Origin: Nitrospira sp.
GTDB lineage: Bacteria; Nitrospirota; Nitrospiria; Nitrospirales; Nitrospiraceae
Length of the DNA stretch: 64,000 bases
Assembly (NCBI GenBank): GCA_029194665.1
Contig: JARFXO010000002.1
Coordinates: 612,001-676,000 of the forward strand
Direction of reading: 5' to 3'
Numbering within the stretch: the first letter of the stretch is position 1; each line of letters begins with the position of its first letter. Under the pieces are notes generated by a model that worked only from the letters and a program-made list of their open reading frames with translations, was not told where the DNA came from and did not search any database. The position numbers were made by a program, and so were the translations under genes. Positions 25,330 to 42,114 of the stretch are shown here, piece after piece.

Positions 25330-25398
25330 GTGGCCTCCCTATCAGCGTTGAGTGGTAGCAGGCTGCGGAAAAACTCGATTTGCGCGCTTCGACATGCT

Positions 25399-25627
25399 TG
25401 TATGGTGTTTTACCGTTCATTCTTGAGAAGCTACGAGGAGCTGGGGTGGAGGGACATCGACTAGCATCTGCCGCACAGCGGACAGACTGTCTGAGAACTC
25501 TCCCACCCACACCACAAACGTCGATGAAGAATCTCGCGGCAGGACCCCTGACCGCCGATTTGTCTGCAAGCTCACGTTGGTGTGTGCCACCCCAGCGTCA
25601 TTCATTTCTGCTTTCAAGGAGGCGACG
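25399..25627 (+). ncRNA. Candidate bridge-RNA region of the IS110 element
   Basis: IS110-group elements encode a structured bridge RNA from the left non-coding end that pairs with both donor and target DNA (established for IS621). This element has its only long non-coding stretch here. Several paired segments are visible, for example around GGGGTGGAGGGACATCGAC and TGCCACCCCAGC. I could not assign the loops with confidence. Confidence 0.4.
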
Positions 25628-26584
25628 ATGATGCAACCCGTTCTGAATGTCGGCGTGGATGTGGCCAAAGACGCCGTTGTGGTCGCATGTGCCGAGCACA
25701 GTTTTCCGGTCCAGCGTATTCCCAATCAGCGGGCCCCCTTGCGGACATGGCTGAAATCTCTCCCAGCCGGCAGCCGCATCGGCTTGGAATCCACCAGCAC
25801 CTATCATGAATTGCTGGCGGCCCTGGCGCAGGCCCACGGGTATACCGTCTTCCTGCTGAACCCGTTGGATACTCGGCACTACGCCAAGGCCATGGGCAAC
25901 CGGGCCAAAACCGACCGGGTGGATGCGGAATTGATTGCCCGACTCATCGCGCAAGAGCACACGCACTTGCGTGCCTAGACGCCTCCCACGGCGAATCAAC
26001 GCAAGCTGGATCAGCTGATTCGACGGCGTGCCACGATTGTCCGTCTCCAAGGCACGCTCAAGCTGACGATGCGCAATCTGGGCGGCTTTGCCGCCGAACT
26101 CAAGGCCGTGATGAGCAAATTGGAGGCGTTGATTGCCAAGATTGATACGGCCATGGCTGCGATTGCGGCTGGTTCGCCCCAACACCAGGAGGCCCAACAT
26201 CGGTTGCAAACCATTGTGGGCGTCGGTCCCCTGGTAGGCCTCAGCTTGACCAATACGTTGGAGCGCGTACCGTTTCGCAAGGCGGATGCCTTCGTCGCTT
26301 TCACCGGGTTGGATCCGCGGGCGAATGACTCGGGACAGAAAGCCGGTCGCCGCCGCTTGTCCAAACGCGGCCCGGCCGAGTTGCGCCGCTTGCTGTTTAA
26401 CGCTGCGATGTCGGCCGTCAAAACTACCGTCTGGAAACCGATCTACGAATCGTACCGCACGCAAGGCTGGAGTACGACCGCCTCGTTGGTGATCATCGCT
26501 CGCAAAATCGCCCGGACCGCGTGGTCTATTCATCATTACCGGACAACATTTAATCCAGAGCGAATAACAAAATGCTTGACATGA
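25628..26584 (+). pseudogene. IS110-family transposase interrupted by a TAG stop
   Basis: The frame runs from ATG 25628 (after AAGGAGG) to TAG 25976-25978, then continues in the same frame to TGA 26582-26584. The N-terminal part has the DEDD RuvC-like residues: NVGVDVAKD, GLESTSTYHELL, and NRAKTDRVDAELIARL. The C-terminal part has the Tnp domain: TIVGVGPLVGLSL, FVAFTGLDPRANDSGQKAGR, and LSKRGPAELRRLLFNAAMSA. Without the TAG the protein would be about 318 residues, normal for the family. The stop follows HTHLRA, where relatives usually have Tyr or Trp, so one base change explains it. The element is probably inactive unless the stop is suppressed. Confidence 0.85.
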
Positions 26585-26694
26585 ACCATAGAATCTCAGC
26601 ACGAACGAAAAGCCTCAGCAAATTCAATGACCGCTCCGTTCGTCCTGAGGCTCTCGAAGGATGAATGGAGGGTTTTTCCGCAGCCTGTTAGAGG

Positions 26695-32231: not shown

Positions 32232-34973
32232 TCAGCGGGTCTGGGCGTCCCGACTGTGGGCCGCCTTCTTTCCTCCCTCTAAGAGCTTCTTTGGATCGAC
32301 CCTGCCGAACAGTTCGATGAGCGCCGCGACGCAACCGGTCCATCCCGTCTGATGGCTCGCGCCCAAACCGGCCCCGTTGTCGCCATGAAAATACTCATAG
32401 AACAACAGATTATCCCGCCAATGACGGTCGGTTTGGAATTTCTCCGCCCCGCCGAATACCGGACGGCGTCCGCTGTTGTCTCGCAGAAAGATCCGCGTGA
32501 GCCGTTCGACAATTTCCCTGGCCACCTCGTATAGATTCATCAGCCGTCCGGATCCGGTCGGACATTCGACCTTAAAGGTATCCCCATAATAGAGATAGAA
32601 CTGGACGAGGGCTCGAATGATGAGCACGTTGACCGGCACCCAGACCGGTCCACGCCAGTTGGAATTACCGCCGAACATGCCCGTGTCCGATTCAGCCGGC
32701 AGATACCCGACCCGATACTCCTGGCCGTTCACGTAAAATACGTAGGGATTCCGCTCGTGGAACTTCGAAATCGACCGCAGCCCGTGGGGACCGAGAAACT
32801 CGTCTTCGCTCAGCATGATCGCCAGGATGCGCCGCAGGCGCTCCTGAGTGACCAAAGCCATGATTCCGCGCTCGTCTACCCCACGATGCCCTTCCCCGGT
32901 AGCATGAATCCAATGAAACAGCTCCGGCATCCTTGTGAATCGCTCTGCAATGACCCGTTTCGCCTGCGGCACCAGTTCGCGTTGCCATGGCTCAATGACT
33001 GTCGTCGCACAGAGAGGTAACAGACCGACCATCGACCGGACTTTCAGATGGGTCGCGCTTCCGTCCGGGAGTCGGAGGAGATCATAGTAGAACCCGTCTT
33101 TCTCATCCCACATCCCGATCCCGTCGGCCGCAGAGCCGTTCATACCGGCCGCGATCCATACGAAATGTTCGAAGAACTTCGCGGCCAAGTCATCGTACAT
33201 GGGGTCCTGAGATGCAAGCTCCACAGCCAGCTCCGCCATATTCTGGCTGAACAGAGCCATCCATGCCGTCCCGTCGGCTTGCTCCAAATAGCCGCCCGTC
33301 GGCAACGGAGCACTACGGTCGAACACGCCGATGTTGTCGAGGCCGAGAAAGCCGCCTTCAAACACGTTCTTGCCGTTCCGGTCCTTGCGGTTCACCCACC
33401 AGGTAAAATTGAGCGTCAGTTTGGAGAATGCCGCCTTGAGAAACTCGATATCTGCCTCGCCGCGGCGTCCGACATCCATTCGATGAAGAAAGAGCGTGGC
33501 CCAGGCATGGACCGGTGGATTCACATCGCTGAAATTCCATTCGTAGGCCGGCACCTGTCCGTTCGGATGCAGGTAATGGCCGGTCAGCATGAGCTCCAAC
33601 TGGTGCCGCGCGAAGTCGGGATCGACGACGGATAAAGCCGTCGTATGGAACGCCAAGTCCCATGCGGCGTACCAGGGATACTCCCACTTGTCCGGCATCG
33701 AAATAATGTCGTCGTTCACCATGTGGAACCACTCCCGGTTCCGGACGACATTGGTTCCTTTGTGGAGCGGATGAGCCTGCCGTTCTTCAAGCCAGCGGTC
33801 GACGTCGTAATAATAGTATTGCTTGCTCCAGAGCATGCCTGCGAGCCCTTGGCGCATGACGTTGGAGCGATCCGGATCGGCTTTGACAGCGGCGGGGGTC
33901 ACGGCATCATAGAACTCATCCGCCTCCCTGTGTCGCACCTTGAATTGCGCGTCGAATTCTCCAAACGGGTCCCGCAACTCACCGGGAGCGGCCTCGGCGA
34001 GACGAAGGCGAATCGTCTGTTCACCGCGTGGGTTGACGGTGAGTTGGTGGTGAGCGGAGACTTTTGTTCCTATCGCCTCAGGGTTGACCGCATCCCGTTT
34101 CCCTTGCACGACATAGTCGTTGATTCCATCCTTGACGTAGGGGCCGGAGTTGGAGCCGCCGAAGAGCTTGGCATGGTTGGTTTCGTTGTCCGTGAACAGC
34201 AACGGGATCTCGCCATCGCAATACAGATGGTAGTCGGTGAGGGACTCCTGGAACAGAGGATCCGTGTGATGGGCATGAACAACGGAGCCTTTCGCTCGTT
34301 TCACCCTGCGCAGCACCGGCTTGCTTCCTCCATAGGCCCAGGACCAGGTATTCCGAAACCAGAGCGTGGGTAGGACATGGAGGCCGGCCTTCTCCGGGCC
34401 ACGATTATGAATCGTGATCTTGATGAGGATATCGTTCGGCGCCGCCTTCGCATACTCGACAAACACGTCGAAATACCGGTCGTCGTTGAAAATGCCTGTA
34501 TCGAGGAGTTCATACTCCATGTCATGGCGATTTCTGCGCCGATTCGTCGAGACCAAGTCTTCATAGGGAAAGGCTGCCTGCGGATATTTGTACAGGTACT
34601 TCATGTAGGAGTGCGTCGGAGTGCTGTCGAGGTAGAAATAGTAGTCCTTCACGTCCTCGCCATGATTGCCCTCGCTGTTCGTCAGGCCAAAGACCCGTTC
34701 CTTGAGGATAGGGTCCTTGCCGTTCCAGAGCGCCAGCGCGAAACAGAGGACTTGGTGGTCATCAGAAATCCCCGCCAATCCGTCTTCTCCCCAACGATAG
34801 GCCCGCGATCGCGACTGCTCATGGGTGAAATAGTCCCAGGCATTGCCGTCCGTACTGTAATCTTCCCGGACAGTCCCCCACTGCCGTTCGCTCAGATACG
34901 GACCCCATTCTTTCCAAGCAGCGGCTTTCGCTTTGGCTTCCTCCAACCGGCGATGTTCTGACGTCTGTGCCAT
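32232..34973 (-). CDS. GH63-like glucosidase (MGH1-type), paralogue 2
   Basis: The 913-residue cytoplasmic protein starts at ATG 34973, seven bases after GGAGG; the ATG six bases earlier is too close. It shares long identical blocks with the first copy, such as GPYLSERQWGTVREDYS, SEGNHGEDVKDYYFYLDSTP, WEYPWYAAWDLAFHTTALSV and GLDNIGVFDRSAPLPTGGYL. The likely catalytic Asp in AAWDLAFH is kept. The first copy has a longer Lys-rich N-terminus and the REP-encoded insert; this copy has neither. No GH13 partner is next to it. A role in alpha-glucoside turnover is inference. Confidence 0.88.
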   Translation of the reverse strand: MAQTSEHRRLEEAKAKAAAWKEWGPYLSERQWGTVREDYSTDGNAWDYFTHEQSRSRAYRWGEDGLAGISDDHQVLCFALALWNGKDPILKERVFGLTNSEGNHGEDVKDYYFYLDSTPTHSYMKYLYKYPQAAFPYEDLVSTNRRRNRHDMEYELLDTGIFNDDRYFDVFVEYAKAAPNDILIKITIHNRGPEKAGLHVLPTLWFRNTWSWAYGGSKPVLRRVKRAKGSVVHAHHTDPLFQESLTDYHLYCDGEIPLLFTDNETNHAKLFGGSNSGPYVKDGINDYVVQGKRDAVNPEAIGTKVSAHHQLTVNPRGEQTIRLRLAEAAPGELRDPFGEFDAQFKVRHREADEFYDAVTPAAVKADPDRSNVMRQGLAGMLWSKQYYYYDVDRWLEERQAHPLHKGTNVVRNREWFHMVNDDIISMPDKWEYPWYAAWDLAFHTTALSVVDPDFARHQLELMLTGHYLHPNGQVPAYEWNFSDVNPPVHAWATLFLHRMDVGRRGEADIEFLKAAFSKLTLNFTWWVNRKDRNGKNVFEGGFLGLDNIGVFDRSAPLPTGGYLEQADGTAWMALFSQNMAELAVELASQDPMYDDLAAKFFEHFVWIAAGMNGSAADGIGMWDEKDGFYYDLLRLPDGSATHLKVRSMVGLLPLCATTVIEPWQRELVPQAKRVIAERFTRMPELFHWIHATGEGHRGVDERGIMALVTQERLRRILAIMLSEDEFLGPHGLRSISKFHERNPYVFYVNGQEYRVGYLPAESDTGMFGGNSNWRGPVWVPVNVLIIRALVQFYLYYGDTFKVECPTGSGRLMNLYEVAREIVERLTRIFLRDNSGRRPVFGGAEKFQTDRHWRDNLLFYEYFHGDNGAGLGASHQTGWTGCVAALIELFGRVDPKKLLEGGKKAAHSRDAQTR

Positions 34974-35032
34974 GGTCATACCTCCATGTAGCAGAATCGT
35001 TCACACCATCTCTTTTTCACGGCGATGAAGCT

Positions 35033-35374: not shown

Positions 35375-36562
35375 TCACTGCTCCCGCCAGACCTTCAACG
35401 TATGCTCGGCGATCATCCGTTCCTCGTCCGTCGGAATAACCCAGGCCGAGACCTTGGAGTCCCGCGTCGAGATGCGCGGCCCACCAGCTCGGTTGGCTGC
35501 CTCATCCAGCTTGAGGCCCAGCCACGCGGCGCCTATGCAGATACGGGCTCGCATCTCAGGAGAATTCTCACTGATGCCGGCCGTGAGGACGACTGCATCC
35601 AAGCCCTGCATTGCGGCCGCCAGAGCACCCAATTCACGCTCCACGCGGTAGACGAAGTAGTCCAGGGCGAGCCTGGCTTGCAGATCCTCGCTTGCCAGGA
35701 GGTCGCGCACGTCGTTGCTGATGCCAGAGAGCCCGCGCAGTCCCGTCTCATGGTAGAGGAATCGTTCCAGCTCCTTTGCGCCGTACCCCTTTTCGGACAC
35801 GAGATACAGGAGGACACCGGGGTCGATCTGGCCGCAACGGGTGCCCATGGGCAAGCCATCCAGTCCCGTGAAGGCCATGGTGCTGTCCATACTCCGCCCT
35901 CCCTTGATGGCGCACATGCTGGCGCCACTGCCCAGGTGGGCGACGACCACCGATCCCTGAGCGATCTCGGGAGCCACGCGAGGCAGGGCACGCGCGATGT
36001 ATTCGTAGGACAGGCCGTGGAACCCGTAGCGGCGGACCCCTTCCTGGTAGAGGGCCTCTGGGATAGCAAATCGGTCTGCCACGTCAGGATGCCCCTGGTG
36101 GAAACCGGTGTCGAAGCAGGCAACTTGCACCATGCCGGGGAAGCGCTCTTGGATCGTGCGGATGGGGCGGAGGTTGTAAGGTTGGTGCATCGGGGCGAGC
36201 GGGATGAGCCGCTCCAGCGCCGCCAGGGTATCATTGTCCACCGATACCGGCGCACGGTAAGCTGGACCACCGTGAGCCACCCGATGTCCGATGGCCACCG
36301 GCACCTCCCCGGCCAAATGCTCGCGAAGCCAAGCGCCGACGCGTCCCATTGCGACCGCTACGTCGGGGATCTCCGCAACCGGGAACGTCTGATCCACCAA
36401 GGGGCTGCCGCCGGCGTCTCTTGCCCGCAGACTCGGACGAGTACCGACCCCGCTCACTTGACCCTTCAACGTCAGCGAGAGTTGGGACTGCCCTCCGATG
36501 CCGTAAACGGAGAACTTGATGCTGGAGGAACCGGCGTTGACGACGAGAATCGTATCGGCCAT
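35375..36562 (-). CDS. ackA: Acetate kinase
   Basis: The 395-residue product carries the acetate kinase signatures: ILVVNAGSSSIKFSVYG at the N-terminus, GHRVAHGG, CFDTGFHQG, RRYGFHGLSYEYIA and VVAHLGSGASMCAIKGGRS. The enzyme interconverts acyl phosphate plus ADP and acid plus ATP. ATG 36562 lies six bases after the stop of the phosphotransacetylase gene, so they form an operon. Length matches the family (about 400). Because the upstream partner is a phosphate acetyl/butyryltransferase, the natural acyl group could be acetyl, butyryl or hydroxybutyryl. Confidence 0.93.
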   Translation of the reverse strand: MADTILVVNAGSSSIKFSVYGIGGQSQLSLTLKGQVSGVGTRPSLRARDAGGSPLVDQTFPVAEIPDVAVAMGRVGAWLREHLAGEVPVAIGHRVAHGGPAYRAPVSVDNDTLAALERLIPLAPMHQPYNLRPIRTIQERFPGMVQVACFDTGFHQGHPDVADRFAIPEALYQEGVRRYGFHGLSYEYIARALPRVAPEIAQGSVVVAHLGSGASMCAIKGGRSMDSTMAFTGLDGLPMGTRCGQIDPGVLLYLVSEKGYGAKELERFLYHETGLRGLSGISNDVRDLLASEDLQARLALDYFVYRVERELGALAAAMQGLDAVVLTAGISENSPEMRARICIGAAWLGLKLDEAANRAGGPRISTRDSKVSAWVIPTDEERMIAEHTLKVWREQ

Positions 36563-36567
36563 GGCCC

Positions 36568-37536
36568 CTACCCTTTTCCCACCCCGGCCCTGGCGGCCAG
36601 CGCGTGCGCATAGAGCGCGGCGACCGCGCATGAGGCCATCCTGGTCCGTTGGTTATCAGCTCGACTGGTGAGGATAATGGGGACCTTCGCACCCAACACG
36701 ACGGCGGCCCCATCGGCCCGCGAGAGGAACATCAGGTTCTTCACCAGCATGTTCCCTGCCTCCAGGTCCGGCACCAGCATAATATCCGGGTTGCCGGCTA
36801 CGGGCGAGTCGATCTTCTTGATCCTGGCCGCCTCGGCGCTGATGGCGTTGTCGAAGGCCAGCGGGCCATCCAGGATGCCGCCGTGGATCTGCCCCCGCTC
36901 GGCCATCTTGCAGAGGGCCGCCGCCTCGATGGTGGAGGGGATCTTCGGATTGATGGTCTCCACGGCCGAGAGGATGGCCACCTTGGGTTGCTTCCAGCCC
37001 AACGCGACAAAGAAGTCGATGGCATTTTGCAGGATATCCGCCTTGTCCTCGAGGCTGGGGAAAATGTTGATGGCGGCATCCGTAACGGCAAACACCTTGT
37101 GGTAGGTAGGCACGTCCATCACAAAGACATGGCTGACCCGCCGAGCGGTCCGCAGGCCCGTCTCACGCTTGACCACCTCGCCCATCAGCTCGTCGGTGTG
37201 AAGGCTCCCCTTCATGAGAAGTTTCGCCCGGCCCAGCCGGACCAGCTCGACCGCCGTCGCCGCAGCAGCGTGGCTATGGGGAGCATCAACAACCTCGTAG
37301 GGCGTGATGTCGAGCGCTGACTCCTTCGCCACCCGGCGGATCTTCTCGGACGGGCCCACGAGAATCGGAGTGATGATCCCCGCCTCAGCCGCCTCGACCA
37401 CGGCGCCGAGCGAGGCGTCGTCGCATGGGTGGGCGACGGCCGTCGGGACCGTCGCCATGCCCTTGCAGCGAGCCAGGAGCGCTTCATACTTGCCGGTGCC
37501 CCGGTGCTCGGTGTTCTCAGTCGTTCCTATCGCCAT
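36568..37536 (-). CDS. Phosphate acetyl/butyryltransferase
   Basis: The 322-residue product is a PTA_PTB family enzyme: DDASLGAVVEAAEAGIITPI, LVGPSEKIR, LLMKGSLHTDELMGEVV, FVMDVPTYHKVFAVTDAAIN and GPLAFDNAIS. It transfers an acyl group from CoA to phosphate. The LMKG.LHTDE form is closer to phosphate butyryltransferases and to the C-terminal domain of bifunctional enoyl-CoA hydratase/phosphate acetyltransferase than to classical Pta. It lies nine bases after the DUF3141 gene and five before ackA, an operon that would convert acyl-CoA to acid with ATP gain. Confidence 0.9.
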   Translation of the reverse strand: MAIGTTENTEHRGTGKYEALLARCKGMATVPTAVAHPCDDASLGAVVEAAEAGIITPILVGPSEKIRRVAKESALDITPYEVVDAPHSHAAAATAVELVRLGRAKLLMKGSLHTDELMGEVVKRETGLRTARRVSHVFVMDVPTYHKVFAVTDAAINIFPSLEDKADILQNAIDFFVALGWKQPKVAILSAVETINPKIPSTIEAAALCKMAERGQIHGGILDGPLAFDNAISAEAARIKKIDSPVAGNPDIMLVPDLEAGNMLVKNLMFLSRADGAAVVLGAKVPIILTSRADNQRTRMASCAVAALYAHALAARAGVGKG

Positions 37537-37545
37537 CGGTTCCTC

Positions 37546-39807
37546 CTATGATTTCGGCGCCGGCTCCCGCAACATCGCCTCGATCCGCGCCAGTCGCGCT
37601 GCCCGTTCACCACTCATCTCGCCGGTTGCCGACGCGACAGCGCGGATCGCCGCCAGCGCCGTTGTCCTGCCGTCTGGATCGTCGTGCAACATCTTGGGGA
37701 TCGCATCGACCGCGCCATCCTGGTCGAGCACCAAGGCCAGGAACTGCTCGCGCAGCACCCGTTTGAACTCCTCCAGCGTCAGGCCGCCCTGTTTGGCACG
37801 CATCTGACGCAACTGGTTGAACGCGCGCTCTTCTACTCCCGGTCCCGCCATACCGATGTAGAGCATGCCGCGGAACGCCGCTTCGCGCCACCCGCCTTCG
37901 GCAACCCTCGCCTTGAGCTCGGCGATCCGCGCCTGGATGAAGGCCGTTCGTTCCGGTTCGATCCCCGGCCGTCGACGAGGACTTTCATCCGAGGCACTCA
38001 GCCCCACGAGGGCCTGTAGCAGCGGGGTGCTGTAGATCGCCAGGAACATCTGTTCGAGACTGCGATCCCGCAGATCGCGCCAGCCGTCGAGCGCCGCGAT
38101 GATCCCCTCTGAGAATCTGGTCTGGGCCTGGAGCAAGGGATTGTCGGGTGAGGCCGGCCGGCGTTGTTTCCGGACCTGTTCGGCGAGTTGGGCGACGTGA
38201 CGCATGACAGGGTTACGATTTGAAAACAGCTCGAAGGGCAGCTCGGAGGGATTGAGTGTATGGAGCCATTGGGCGGTCTGCTCGTTCGCGAACGTCCGAA
38301 CAAACGGTTGCAGCATGGTGCGGTACAGGCCGAGATTGATCTGCGACAGGCGCCGCACGGTCGCGAACCGGCGCTCATCCTCTGGGTCGGGTGAGACAAT
38401 GGCCCGGATGTCATTCAGGCTGCGTCGCTCGAAACGGACGATCCAGTCGCTCCCGACCAGTTCCGGATGGGCCGAGTCCTCGGTCTTGCGGGTCATCACC
38501 GCCTCGTACAGGCCGGGGGGCAGCACGTCGATCAAATCGATATTGGAAGCGAATTCTTCGTGCTCCTTGCGGGCCACGCCGCCGGAAACGAAGATGCCGA
38601 GATGGCCGACGCTCTCGTGGACGGCATAGACGATGGTCTGGCCCTGGGCGAGAATATCCTCGTCCTTCTGATACAGGTCGCAGATCCAGCCGAGGGCCTG
38701 CGGCGGCGGAGTGATGTTGTCCCCCTTGGAGCAGAAACAGACGATGGGCGAACGGATATTCCGCAGGTCGATCCTCATCCCATCACTGGTGACGAGTTCA
38801 GCGGTCGCCAGCCTGTTACCAATGAACAGTTGATCGACGATCCATTGTATTTCCTCGGCGGTGAGGTTGACGTGGCCGCCCCACCATTTTTCGAATTCCA
38901 AGAAGCGCGCTCCCTCTGTGTCGACCTTGGCCCAGACGTTGTAATTTTTCGTCCAGAGAGTGTTGGCGGGGTTGAGGTTTTCGAAGTTGATGACGATATT
39001 CGCGCCGTCGAATTTGCCGGCGCCGAGGTCGCTGGTCAGCGCGGTCAGCCAGCTCCCGCCCATGAGTCCGCCTGTATATCGCATCGGGTTCCGGCCCACG
39101 GTTCCGGCCCAGTAGGACAGAGGCGAGCCGGCGATGATGATCGGCCCGAACAGCTCAGGTCGCGTCGCGGCCAGCATCATCACCGCCCAACCGGCCTGGC
39201 AGTTGCCGATGACGCAGGGCTTGCCGTCTGCATCTGGGTGGAGAGCGATCACCTTCTCCAAGAACATCGCTTCGGCGCGCATGATGTCTTCGATGGTTTG
39301 ACCCGGCATCGGCTCGGGAGAGAAGCCGACGAAGTAGCAAGGATGACCGGCACGCATCGCCACGCCCAGTTCGCTCTCGGCCTTGAACCCCCCGATGCCG
39401 GGCCCATGTCCGGCGCGCGGGTCCACGACCACGAACGGGCGTTTCTTTTGGTCGATGACTACCCCTTCCGGCGGCTTGATCCTCACCAGCCCATAATTGA
39501 CCGGCCGGTCGAAGGTCCGTCCGTCCAGCACCGTTTCGTGGCCGAAAATGAGCACGTGCGGGACCGCCTTCGCTTTCTGCTCATAGTATTGGTCGCTGCG
39601 CTGCCGCAGCACATCCCAGAACAGGATCGTGCGCTGCCAGGCGTCCACCCAATAGTCCCAGGCGGTCAGCCAAGGGTTGGGCATGGCCGAGAATGGAGGA
39701 TCGAGCGGCTTCCGATCGGATACGCCCTGGGTCTGAGTCTTTGTCTGGTGACGGTCACTGGAGACTTCGGATCGCTTGCGGCCGTCTGTCGGCGTCTGGG
39801 TCTGCAT
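37546..39807 (-). CDS. DUF3141 domain protein (PHA-synthase-like alpha/beta hydrolase)
   Basis: The 753-residue product has no signal peptide. The N-terminal 100 residues contain MPNPWLTAWDYWVDAWQRTI, as in phasin or PHA synthase N-termini. The alpha/beta hydrolase core has FVVVDPRAGHGPGIGGFK, a region around CVIGNCQAGWAVMMLAATRP where Cys sits in the nucleophile elbow (GNCQAG, a GxCxG form as in PHA synthases), and the SPIVCFCSKGDNITPPPQAL Asp motif. The C-terminal 250 residues are helical. It leads the operon with a phosphotransacylase and an acyl kinase. Members are known from PHA-producing bacteria, but the reaction is not established. Confidence 0.85.
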   Translation of the reverse strand: MQTQTPTDGRKRSEVSSDRHQTKTQTQGVSDRKPLDPPFSAMPNPWLTAWDYWVDAWQRTILFWDVLRQRSDQYYEQKAKAVPHVLIFGHETVLDGRTFDRPVNYGLVRIKPPEGVVIDQKKRPFVVVDPRAGHGPGIGGFKAESELGVAMRAGHPCYFVGFSPEPMPGQTIEDIMRAEAMFLEKVIALHPDADGKPCVIGNCQAGWAVMMLAATRPELFGPIIIAGSPLSYWAGTVGRNPMRYTGGLMGGSWLTALTSDLGAGKFDGANIVINFENLNPANTLWTKNYNVWAKVDTEGARFLEFEKWWGGHVNLTAEEIQWIVDQLFIGNRLATAELVTSDGMRIDLRNIRSPIVCFCSKGDNITPPPQALGWICDLYQKDEDILAQGQTIVYAVHESVGHLGIFVSGGVARKEHEEFASNIDLIDVLPPGLYEAVMTRKTEDSAHPELVGSDWIVRFERRSLNDIRAIVSPDPEDERRFATVRRLSQINLGLYRTMLQPFVRTFANEQTAQWLHTLNPSELPFELFSNRNPVMRHVAQLAEQVRKQRRPASPDNPLLQAQTRFSEGIIAALDGWRDLRDRSLEQMFLAIYSTPLLQALVGLSASDESPRRRPGIEPERTAFIQARIAELKARVAEGGWREAAFRGMLYIGMAGPGVEERAFNQLRQMRAKQGGLTLEEFKRVLREQFLALVLDQDGAVDAIPKMLHDDPDGRTTALAAIRAVASATGEMSGERAARLARIEAMLREPAPKS

Positions 39808-39828: not shown

Positions 39829-39965
39829 TAACAGGCTGCGGAAAAACTAGATTTCCGCGCTTCGACATGCTCAGCACGAACGAAAAACCTCAGCAAATTC
39901 AATGACCGCTCCGTTGGTCCTGAGGCTCTCGAAGGATGAACGGAGGGTTTTTCCGCAGCCTGCTA
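39829..39965. repeat. 137-bp palindromic repeat, intact copy
   Basis: It begins TAACAGGCTGCGGAAAAACT and ends GGTTTTTCCGCAGCCTGCTA, near-perfect terminal inverted repeats of about 19 bases. The inner arms TTCGACATGCTCAGCACGAA and TCCTGAGGCTCTCGAAGG are weaker inverted repeats. It fills the space upstream of the DUF3141 gene. The remainder of the gap to 40129 shows no gene. Confidence 0.85.
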
Positions 39966-40129
39966 AGCCACATAGCCAGGATGTTTCATCCGGCAGAGCC
40001 GTAAGGGGGTATCATATACATAGGACGGCTGTCCAGACAGATCCGCCCTCTCTTTTTCGCGCCAACAACCGGTGCAGGATGAGGAGTTGTGCCGTTCTTG
40101 TGCGAGGCTTCACGCGAGCAGCAAGCATA

Positions 40130-41350
40130 TTACAGAGTTCCCGGTCTGGCACAGCCGTCGGGCGAGACGGCGTAGGAGTTCAAGAGCCCGTAATGATCGG
40201 ACGCTGGGAGTCCGGCCTCGTCCGTCTCCAGCCCGAACATCGATTGTGTCAGACAGTAGCCGGGGAGAAAGGAGTCCTCGATCAAGTAGTCGATCTGTCT
40301 TGGACGTTGCATCTCGGTCCGGTACGCGCGAGTGATCTCGGCCTGCAGGTCGTCGCCCTCGCCCTTGATCATACCAGTCAGAAGGGACGGAAGCGGTGAG
40401 GTCATGGCGTCCGGTATCAGCCGGTTCCTGGGGGGATCGGCGGTATAAAAACCGGCATTCTGCCCGTTCACACGAGTCGTATCGACATACCGGAGAAGCT
40501 GAAGCTCCTCGTATTCTGGGTCATCCGACTCGAAATTCAAGTCTCCGCCGAAGAGAATACCAGCGTAATCCTCATCACGCTTGAGCTTCTGCAACGTGCG
40601 GCTCAACCGGTCGATTTCTCCGATCCGCCGCAGCCGAGACTGCTCGACGCTCCACCGCAACGACCGGTACTTGGAAAGCTTGCCTTGCGAATGCAAGGAG
40701 GCTAAATAGGCCAAAAATGACCGGCCCGTTTCAAAGCCCGAATGCAGGTGGGTTGTGGCGACCAGATGCCTCCGGCTGCTTCCCGGGATCGTGATCTCTG
40801 CGATGAGCGCATAGCGCAACTCTTCGAGTTGGAAGCCACGATCCGTGTGACACTCGCCTTTTTCACCGCTTAGTTTCAGCCCTGCGAGTTTGCGGAGCTG
40901 GAGCGGCTTCTTTGCCAGGATGACCAGCCCGTTGTTCAGATCGGCGAACAGCGCCCGTTTCTCGGCGGTGCGGATTCCGCATGCATCCACCTGGTGCACC
41001 TCATCATAGGCCAATCCCAGTTCCTCGAGGGCACCGACGTACGCCTCCGATCGGAGGGGCAAGGGATTGACTTCCTGCAGAAACGCGATATCGGGTTGCA
41101 CTCTGGCCAGTTGAGCGATCAGCAAACGGAATCTGGTCTCGTTCTGCTCCGGCGTTTCTCCTGGAGCGACTCCGAATGTCCCGGTCAGCAATCCGTGCAA
41201 GGCGTTGTAGGTGAGGACCTTAAACGTCTTCGGCATCCGTTCCGAGGCTTCGGCGATGGGGGACTGCTGATCCGGAGGGCCCCCTGTTCGGCAGGACAGC
41301 GACACAAGGCTCAGCGCGACGACCGCAATCATGAGGAACAGCCTCGTCAT
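40130..41350 (-). CDS. Endonuclease/exonuclease/phosphatase family lipoprotein
   Basis: The 406-residue product has a signal peptide with lipobox LVSLSC. The EEP domain follows with VLTYNALHGLL, DIAFLQEVNPLPL (catalytic Glu), LVATTHLHSG, GILFGGDLNFESDDPEY (GDLN) and RPRQIDYLIEDSFLPGYC, with the last His of the family seen in LPASDHYGLL. Members cleave phosphodiester bonds in nucleic acids or in sphingomyelin and phosphoinositides; a lipid-anchored form facing the periplasm suggests an extracellular substrate. ATG 41350 overlaps the stop of the SYLF gene (ATGA), so the two are translationally coupled. Confidence 0.88.
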   Translation of the reverse strand: MTRLFLMIAVVALSLVSLSCRTGGPPDQQSPIAEASERMPKTFKVLTYNALHGLLTGTFGVAPGETPEQNETRFRLLIAQLARVQPDIAFLQEVNPLPLRSEAYVGALEELGLAYDEVHQVDACGIRTAEKRALFADLNNGLVILAKKPLQLRKLAGLKLSGEKGECHTDRGFQLEELRYALIAEITIPGSSRRHLVATTHLHSGFETGRSFLAYLASLHSQGKLSKYRSLRWSVEQSRLRRIGEIDRLSRTLQKLKRDEDYAGILFGGDLNFESDDPEYEELQLLRYVDTTRVNGQNAGFYTADPPRNRLIPDAMTSPLPSLLTGMIKGEGDDLQAEITRAYRTEMQRPRQIDYLIEDSFLPGYCLTQSMFGLETDEAGLPASDHYGLLNSYAVSPDGCARPGTL

Positions 41351-42114
41351 GGATCCTCTCCCGCTCTGTCCAAGGTGTTGCGTATGCGGGCCGAATACCA
41401 ATGGTGGAGGGTCTGCGGATGGGCAAGAATGTCATCCGAGCGCATCGCCGAGCCATAATAGGCCTCATTGGCGGATGCATCGGACATCGCAATGAGGCCT
41501 TGGAGGGTCACGCCGGCATAGGCGCCTCCGGCCTTGGCAAAGGATACGATTCCATGGCGCAGGGTCGGTGTCGTCGCCGCCTTTGCTGAGGCGCCCACGG
41601 GACCGATCGCCAAGGCCGCGCCCGGTCCGAAGACGAACCGCCCTCGCAGGAACGAGTCGGTCTCGGGGCGGCCCATAATGAGGGCGACGACTTCCGTACG
41701 AGCTATTCCTATTTGGAGACCGGCGCTCACTCCCATCAAACTGAAGAACGCCGGATCGCCCCATTGCCCAGTCTGTTCGTCCTTCACCAGCAAGATCCCC
41801 TCTCCTTTGGCCACTCCGGCCAAGTATCCGATTCGAACGATAGCCGGAGCAATGAAGATGGCCTTGGCTTCCTGCAGATTCCGTCGAAGCCAGCTCATGT
41901 CCGGATGGGCGAGCATTCGCGCGACGATCAGCCGTGCATTGTCGACGATTTCCTGAGCGTCGCTGACATCCATGGCCTTCCCGGTCGTCGGAGACAGCAT
42001 CAACATCATGGCAGCAAAGAAGGCCGAAAGAATCGGGCGGGATCTGTTGTTGTGGATGTTGCGTGATAAGCGGCGAAGCACCGCTGCTCGCGCGGCGAGA
42101 CGAGGGACGATCAT
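41347..42114 (-). CDS. YSC84/SYLF domain lipid-binding protein
   Basis: The 255-residue secreted protein has a signal segment (ILSAFFAAMMLMLSPTTGKA) and a SYLF domain: AKAIFIAPAIVRIGYLAGVA, GILLVKDEQTGQWGDPAFFS, GVSAGLQIGIARTEVVALIM and GAALAIGPVGASA. The DE.TG.W.DP.F motif and the GPVGA motif are shared with the product at 17774. Translation is coupled to the EEP lipoprotein by ATGA overlap. The pairing of a lipid binder with a possible phosphodiesterase suggests a lipid-linked function, as inference. Confidence 0.87.
   Translation of the reverse strand: MIVPRLAARAAVLRRLSRNIHNNRSRPILSAFFAAMMLMLSPTTGKAMDVSDAQEIVDNARLIVARMLAHPDMSWLRRNLQEAKAIFIAPAIVRIGYLAGVAKGEGILLVKDEQTGQWGDPAFFSLMGVSAGLQIGIARTEVVALIMGRPETDSFLRGRFVFGPGAALAIGPVGASAKAATTPTLRHGIVSFAKAGGAYAGVTLQGLIAMSDASANEAYYGSAMRSDDILAHPQTLHHWYSARIRNTLDRAGEDP

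Follow-up and report, generated by a model that had tools for sequence, protein, structure and literature searches.

The DNA analysed here is a 64,000-nucleotide stretch of the Nitrospira sp. assembly GCA_029194665.1 (contig JARFXO010000002.1, positions 612,001 to 676,000; hereafter the window), in which three adjoining genes on the minus strand encode a DUF3141 protein, a phosphotransacylase and an acyl kinase. We tentatively read this operon, with a chance of being right that falls just short of even, as a module linked to poly-3-hydroxybutyrate (PHB) that joins acyl transfer to substrate-level phosphorylation, PHB being converted to acyl-CoA and then to a free acid and ATP. The observations that carry this reading are the gene order, the protein families, a catalytic triad, gene co-occurrence, changes in the kinase pocket, gene fusions and a predicted PhaC fold; from these, we infer the thiolysis, its direction, the acyl substrate and the action at the PHB granule. 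The DUF3141-pta-ack arrangement itself is not new, having been reported from Sinorhizobium meliloti and from Burkholderia (PMC8231600); the neighbour counts, the co-occurrence in Nitrospira, the hydratase fusions and the altered kinase pocket are added here.

In the proposed route, DUF3141 would be a PhaC-type Cys-His-Asp enzyme acting on PHB, most likely transferring the polymer's (R)-3-hydroxybutyryl units to CoA by thiolysis; the Ptb-type phosphotransacylase would swap CoA for phosphate, and the kinase would yield ATP and the free acid. In the four-gene form found in other phyla, a PhaJ-type hydratase, sometimes fused to the phosphotransacylase, together with FabI might turn 3-hydroxybutyryl-CoA into butyryl-CoA, and stored PHB would then be fermented to butyrate. 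The Nitrospira form, which lacks fabI and has an altered kinase pocket, might release 3-hydroxybutyrate; alternatively, PhaB and PhaA might run in reverse there, followed by acetate formation. Single steps have precedents: in Escherichia coli, a Ptb-Buk pair converts (R)-3-hydroxybutyryl-CoA to (R)-3-hydroxybutyrate (PMC7147478), and PHB thiolysis has been ascribed to PhaZ1 of Ralstonia eutropha (PMC3430594).

The operon in the window

The first-pass annotation of the window had described a three-gene operon with gaps of nine and five bases, and coordinates, codons and Pfam families all agree with that description:

37546-39807, minus strand: DUF3141 protein, 753 aa, first gene of the operon (open reading frame (ORF) and Pfam, codons checked)
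36568-37536, minus strand: Ptb/Pta-family phosphotransacylase, 322 aa (ORF, Pfam and curated models)
35375-36562, minus strand: acetate/propionate kinase family protein, 395 aa (ORF, Pfam and curated models)

The intergenic gaps measure 9 bp (37537-37545) and 5 bp (36563-36567), with start and stop codons checked on the sequence; the kinase coordinates assume a start at the ATG of MADTILVVNAG, the ORF listing giving a longer frame from 36631. The Pfam matches are PF11339 for DUF3141 (E 2.7e-286), PF01515 (PTA_PTB) for the phosphotransacylase (E 1.1e-44) and PF00871 (Acetate_kinase) for the kinase (E 3.7e-99), which together give the order ORF-pta-ack; a chance arrangement is excluded because other genomes have the same gene order. 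A sigma-70 promoter scan found 0 sites against 1.0 expected and is thus without information either way. The genome that contains the window (G000) comprises 4.8 Mb in 17 contigs. A 13,651-bp contig (L124) of the congener G030 is identical to locus L029 of our set, which is Nitrospira sp. LK70 PHGD01000110.

The DUF3141 protein

DUF3141 passes the gathering score of PF11339 at 951.3 versus 29.7 bits, covering positions 1-581 of the 582 in the profile. The following features were placed on it:

38524-39600, minus strand: PhaC-like alpha/beta-hydrolase core, about residues 70-428 (model and structure comparison)
39199-39201, minus strand: codon of Cys203, proposed nucleophile, in GNCQAG (residues 201-206) (alignment)
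38719-38721, minus strand: codon of Asp363 of the proposed triad (alignment)
38602-38604, minus strand: codon of His402 of the proposed triad (alignment)
37561-37902, minus strand: C-terminal helical domain, residues 636-749, possibly TerB-like (structure comparison, weak sequence support)

An AlphaFold2 model built from a 44-sequence alignment has a mean predicted local distance difference test score (pLDDT) of 83.8 and a predicted template modelling score (pTM) of 0.84. When this model was compared with solved structures, the top six Foldseek rows were PhaC chains, and a second structure comparison placed PhaC in its first seven rows (Z 23.6-22.1), followed by a lipase (Z 20.4); the core is therefore predicted to have a PhaC-type alpha/beta fold. 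The cysteine elbow GNCQAG, likened to that of polyhydroxyalkanoate (PHA) synthases in the first-pass annotation, holds up under alignment with the genome's own class III PhaC, to which DUF3141 is 21% identical and with whose triad, including the triad Cys, C203, D363 and H402 align. Asp363 and His402 are present in 44 of 44 rows of alignment A3 and in 12 of 12 rows of alignment A1; Cys203 is likewise present in all 44 rows of A3, a count that speaks less for our reading than it seems to, as GNCQAGW was one of two search patterns and its conservation is partly a selection effect. Alignment A3 covers 43 of the 80 loci; it leaves out L019, L060 and L080, whose match ranges contain stop codons, as well as all loci that were not chosen, L027 and L029 among them.

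Membership of PhaC in the strict sense was considered and rejected for DUF3141, which misses the curated cut-offs by far (TIGR01836, 24.9 of 365.3 bits; TIGR01838, 19.2 of 622.65 bits) and gives no Pfam row for PhaC_N (PF07167) at E up to 1; the likeness in fold and triad stays. Compared with class III PhaC, then, DUF3141 shares the predicted fold, the Cys-Asp-His triad and a similar motif around the His, but has low identity, lies far under the family cut-offs and has no PhaE adjoining it. The thiolysis that we propose is the reaction ascribed to PhaZ1-type depolymerases (PF06850; PMC3430594), whereas PF06850 does not match DUF3141 at E up to 1, and that family was found in 0 of 59 genomes. 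Published assignments of DUF3141 proteins disagree: one is listed as phaZ in a table of PMC8050969, one is called hypothetical inside a phaCAB cluster in PMC8601165, and PMC11878206 groups DUF3141 by fold with PHA synthases.

Residues 436-753 modelled alone gave a mean pLDDT of 81.0 and a pTM of 0.54. Within this part, residues 636-749 resemble TerB-type chains (2h5n, Z 8.2; 2ou3, a tellurite resistance protein, Z 7.0; next, 5.0; VIA-align). Foldseek of the C-terminal domain against the PDB returned nothing at E 0.001 (best E 0.6), and PF05099 appeared in only 1 of 41 members, at E 0.11. The TerB likeness, which is weak for a helical domain, may reflect a common arrangement alone. Short plasmid forms of DUF3141 without the last ~130 residues occur in Roseibium and Methylocystis (L013, 6725-8617; L014, 6842-8746), near ppk2 (polyphosphate kinase 2), copper and cytochrome genes.

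Phosphotransacylase and kinase

The phosphotransacylase passes NF008852, a PRK11890-type model (511.3 of 413 bits), and falls below the cut-offs of phosphate butyryltransferase TIGR02706 (330.3 of 410.5 bits) and of the Pta model TIGR00651 (70.1 of 311 bits). Its best solved relative is 7vg9, a phosphate butyryltransferase, and by these scores, it is far nearer Ptb than Pta. Among 58 phosphotransacylase rows, eight have an N-terminal extension with a GDxNPxH motif, and a MaoC_dehydratas Pfam match was found in all four of these eight that were scanned. PhaJ-type hydratases interconvert crotonyl-CoA and (R)-3-hydroxyacyl-CoA; therefore, the fusion of hydratase and phosphotransacylase speaks for a C4 substrate over an acetyl one. 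A PhaJ-Pta fusion has also been described in Burkholderia (PMC8231600).

The kinase retains the catalytic residues N9, R94, H126, D151, H182, R242 and E380; it passes the acetate/propionate kinase model TIGR00016 (325.9 of 293.4 bits) and lies below the butyrate kinase cut-off of TIGR02707 (58.6 of 289.1 bits). The acetate pocket of Methanosarcina thermophila AckA is formed by Val93, Leu122, Phe179 and Pro232 (PMC5517563), as against Ala/Met/Phe/Gly in the kinases of the window and of two congeners. The three changed residues lie as follows:

36275-36277, minus strand: kinase Ala96 (Val93 of M. thermophila AckA) (alignment)
36188-36190, minus strand: kinase Met125 (Leu122 of M. thermophila AckA) (alignment)
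35864-35866, minus strand: kinase Gly233 (Pro232 of M. thermophila AckA) (alignment)

Of 54 operon kinase rows (the LK70 contig being counted twice), 53 cover position 232, and all of these have replaced the Pro, 49 by Ala, 3 by Gly and 1 by Ser. At position 93, 49 rows have Val and 3 have Ala, the other 2 not covering it. All eight AckAs examined from outside the operon in the genus and order retain both Val93 and Pro232, the operon kinases stand apart from native kinases in trees, and a separate AckA is encoded elsewhere in the window's genome. The simplest reading of these residues would be a kinase substrate larger than acetate.

Gene order in relatives and known systems

A search for relatives matched 582, of which the best 80 were used, a sample biased to close relatives, Bradyrhizobium and Alcaligenaceae. 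Neighbours within 5 kb of DUF3141 on the same strand were tallied in the 62 loci flanked on each side by 3.5 kb or more, the other 18 being short-flanked and left out. Conservation of the gene order, a point raised by the first-pass annotation, is evident: pta and ack adjoin DUF3141 in 42 of these 62 loci, 36 of them also with fabI and 6 without, and the remainder have pta and fabI (3), fabI alone (2), pta alone (1) or none of the three (14). Three desulfobacterial or delta-type loci (L054, L069 and L095) hold the four genes in another order, ack-fabI-DUF3141-pta. Among eight plasmid regions examined, the pta-ack pair is present in three (S. meliloti, Azospirillum and Pseudomonas veronii) and missing near DUF3141 in five; on the P. 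veronii plasmid, a phasin gene is followed by DUF3141-pta-ackA-fabI and then by phbB and phbC. Genes for acetate/3-oxoacid (acetoacetate-type) CoA-transferases were seen in 16 of the 80 DUF3141 loci, 12 of them Bradyrhizobium (for example, L022, 4622-5937).

The PhoB-controlled ORF-pta-ack-fabI operon of S. meliloti, cited in PMC8231600, is a close known counterpart in layout: plasmid pSmeSM11c of strain SM11 likewise has the order DUF3141, pta, ack, fabI, and we infer that the ORF of the S. meliloti operon is a DUF3141 protein. The Nitrospira operon differs from it in having no fabI, another kinase pocket and no PHO box detected in a consensus scan. In Burkholderia sensu lato, a PhaC-type protein likewise stands beside pta, ack and fabI in the arrangements phaC-pta-ack-fabI and phaC/phaJ-pta/ackA (groups D1 and D2; PMC8231600); the first gene is counted as phaC there, whereas that of Nitrospira belongs to PF11339, has no PhaC_N match and carries a C-terminal extension of ~320 residues. 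Engineered Ptb-Buk routes also combine a phosphotransacylase and a kinase, acting on 3-hydroxybutyryl-CoA (PMC7147478), but their kinase is a true butyrate kinase, whereas that of Nitrospira is of the AckA family.

PHB genes in the same genomes

The presence of phaC elsewhere in the genome, which the first-pass annotation had posed as a question, is confirmed by a cluster (L120) encoding a thiolase, an acetoacetyl-CoA-reductase-like short-chain dehydrogenase/reductase (300.9 bits, cut-off 302.1), a phasin-like protein, PhaE (179.3 of 154.95 bits) and PhaC (526.6 of 365.3 bits). Within the 35 genomes of the genus, full-length DUF3141, a class III PhaC over the cut-off and a true Pta are each confined to G000, G012 and G030, which are perhaps one lineage, so that these counts are not independent events. 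The true Pta of the three scores 136-139 bits, other PF01515 hits among the 35 congeners reaching at most 31.8, and a class III PhaC was found once more, in G038, which is of a different family. PhaC_N is present in 38 of 38 other DUF3141 genomes searched (38 of the 80 loci), a count that stands without a baseline, PhaC being common in proteobacteria; because of this constant presence, DUF3141 appears to accompany the polymerase rather than to replace it. Searches for other enzymes of PHB mobilisation came back empty, which speaks for our reading: CoA-transferase PF01144 was found in 0 of 8 genomes, 3-hydroxybutyrate dehydrogenase over the cut-off in 0 of 8 and acetoacetyl-CoA synthetase over the cut-off in 0 of 3. 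For LK70, PMC7078480 reports that phaCE were unique to it among the Nitrospira then known and that phaABCE, pta and ackA were transcribed.

Regulation

In Bradyrhizobium diazoefficiens, blr3456 heads the predicted operon blr3456-blr3459, in which blr3457 is pta and blr3458 is ackA; it has two predicted PhaR boxes, and in a phaR mutant, its transcript rose 7.2-fold and its protein by log2 7.2 (PMC10888616). By its position in the Bradyrhizobium order DUF3141-pta-ack-fabI, blr3456 is very probably the DUF3141 gene, and the PHB-responsive repressor PhaR thus probably controls the DUF3141-pta-ack operon in this species. The pta and ackA genes of NGR234 are up 118-228 fold in bacteroids (PMC3732241). 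A PHO box showed no enrichment, with at least 11 matches in 3 of 68 loci versus 3.1% of 1288 background windows, in a scan that took the best match to 14 fixed positions of a consensus in ~500 bp upstream, without a positive control.

Weighing the proposed function

A number of points weigh against PHB mobilisation by this operon. Its kinase belongs by family score with acetate/propionate kinases, the Nitrospira operon has no fabI (it was not found as a fourth gene among the window ORFs and Pfam matches, the next gene downstream encoding a GH63/MGH1-like hydrolase at 32232-34979), and because 14 of the 62 loci and five of the eight plasmid regions have none of the partner genes nearby, DUF3141 can act without pta, ack and fabI. 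The fold and triad set no direction because PhaC-type chemistry is imaginable both ways, and the possible single lineage of the three Nitrospira and the missing baseline for PhaC_N reduce the weight of co-occurrence. A phaZ has been reported in LK70 and other Nitrospira (PMC7078480), and PF10503 gave one weak over-cut-off match (29.1 bits) in G000 and none in G012 or G030, so that the window's genome may have a PHB depolymerase after all. Regarding regulation, the identity of blr3456 as DUF3141 comes from gene order; none of 18 other alphaproteobacterial loci scanned has a match (at least 14/17) to the blr3456-type PhaR box upstream of its DUF3141 gene, a scan that does not test that identity; the lower PHB of the phaR mutant is no proof of an operon effect because PhaZ1 also rises (PMC10888616); and the S. 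meliloti operon is induced via PhoB under phosphate starvation (cited in PMC8231600).

The operon might instead serve ordinary acetate metabolism, whether overflow, fermentation or uptake, with DUF3141 as a PHA-associated passenger or an indirect feeder of acetyl-CoA, which we consider unlikely, though far from negligible. Kinase and transferase both pass acetate-type family cut-offs, and acetate kinase and phosphotransacetylase activities were reportedly measured for the S. meliloti operon by Summers in 1999. The authors of the LK70 study interpreted its pta and ackA, both transcribed, as acetate metabolism (PMC7078480), and the same genes of B. diazoefficiens were read likewise (PMC10888616). 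Such a role sits poorly, however, with a transferase much closer to Ptb than to Pta, an altered acetate pocket, hydratase-phosphotransacylase fusions, a separate AckA already in the window's genome and a DUF3141 gene that remains beside pta-ack across phyla. Synthesis, with DUF3141 polymerising acyl-CoA that the kinase and transferase have made from acids, would be a natural counterpart of engineered butyrate-kinase/phosphotransbutyrylase/PHA-synthase routes; it seems to us rather improbable, although the PhaC fold and triad are in place and every step but FabI can run that way; PHA formation from acetate-type substrates has been proposed for Burkholderia phaC-pta-ack clusters (PMC8231600). 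It has to reckon with DUF3141 missing the polymerase family cut-offs and with genomes that already contain PhaC, the Nitrospira with a class III PhaEC cluster of their own.

FabI works in the reductive direction, a step that does not fit synthesis, and for this reason, together with the constant presence of a separate PhaC, we favour mobilisation. DUF3141 could also be a PhaC-like granule protein of little or no catalytic activity whose role is to modulate the true synthase, the kinase pair being merely co-regulated; its long non-PhaC tail and its frequent occurrence without pta-ack would suit this role, and Bradyrhizobium PhaC2 has been proposed to reduce PhaC1 activity through heterodimers (PMC10888616), but the full triad in all rows examined is unlike what is expected of an inactive homologue, and we find this quite improbable. 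The flow suggested in the first-pass annotation, from a polymer- or enzyme-bound acyl group to acyl-CoA, acyl phosphate, acid and ATP, is partly supported and fits the evidence somewhat better than these alternatives, although the direction is not fixed by sequence. In its favour are the conserved gene order, the PHA gene cluster elsewhere in the genome and a kinase pocket unlike those of acetate kinases; on the other side, the arrangement was already known, and pta and ackA of LK70 had been interpreted as acetate metabolism.

A wider proposal, which is possible but on the unlikely side, is that DUF3141 would constitute a separate thiolytic, PHB-mobilising family that starts a dedicated storage-polyester fermentation via PhaJ/FabI, a Ptb-type transferase and a wide-pocket kinase, and that is spread over rhizobia, Competibacter-type sludge bacteria, desulfobacteria and a few Nitrospira, letting oxygen-starved cells gain ATP from PHB without respiration. 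If PHB mobilisation is right, it would explain why a PhaC-like ORF, pta, ack and fabI are neighbours in rhizobia and Burkholderia, account for ATP from stored PHB under oxygen shortage, for instance inside root nodules or in sludge tanks without aeration, provide PF11339 with a testable reaction and add storage-polymer fermentation to a few Nitrospira. Should it prove wrong, an acyl substrate other than acetate would still be required to explain the hydratase-transferase fusions and the changes in the kinase pocket.

Origin and surroundings of the operon

In the DUF3141 tree, the three Nitrospira share a clade of 15 rows (100/100) with sequences from Competibacteraceae and betaproteobacteria, and the gene was likely transferred into Nitrospira from that side. 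Transfer of the whole operon from Competibacter was rejected, as the Contendobacter rows are not the partners of the Nitrospira Pta and kinase in their trees; because these trees give neighbours unlike those of DUF3141, the operon has a mosaic history in which one donor does not stand out.

Upstream of the operon, an endonuclease/exonuclease/phosphatase-family gene (40130-41401) is also kept in the two other Nitrospira. On the phaC-bearing contig, the region G000:C7:98446-141802 contains several open frames of 1801-2639 aa with adenylate-forming-domain matches, similar frames being found in G012, which suggests a large cluster of the non-ribosomal peptide synthetase type. The DUF3141 start is preceded, at a distance of ~20 bp, by a palindromic insertion of ~130 bp (39829-39967) with the ends CAGGCTGCGGAAAAAC, which the two other Nitrospira copies lack. 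Copies of its end motif number 7 in the window versus 0.03 expected and 44 genome-wide (at most 1 mismatch; reversed control, 0), and by these repeats, the small palindromic elements look like a family resembling miniature inverted-repeat transposable elements. The same motif bounds both sides of a ~1.3 kb element (25359-26687) in which two separate frames (25577-25978 and 26069-26584) match IS110-type transposases; this element is possibly the parent of the small ones, with an interrupted transposase gene.

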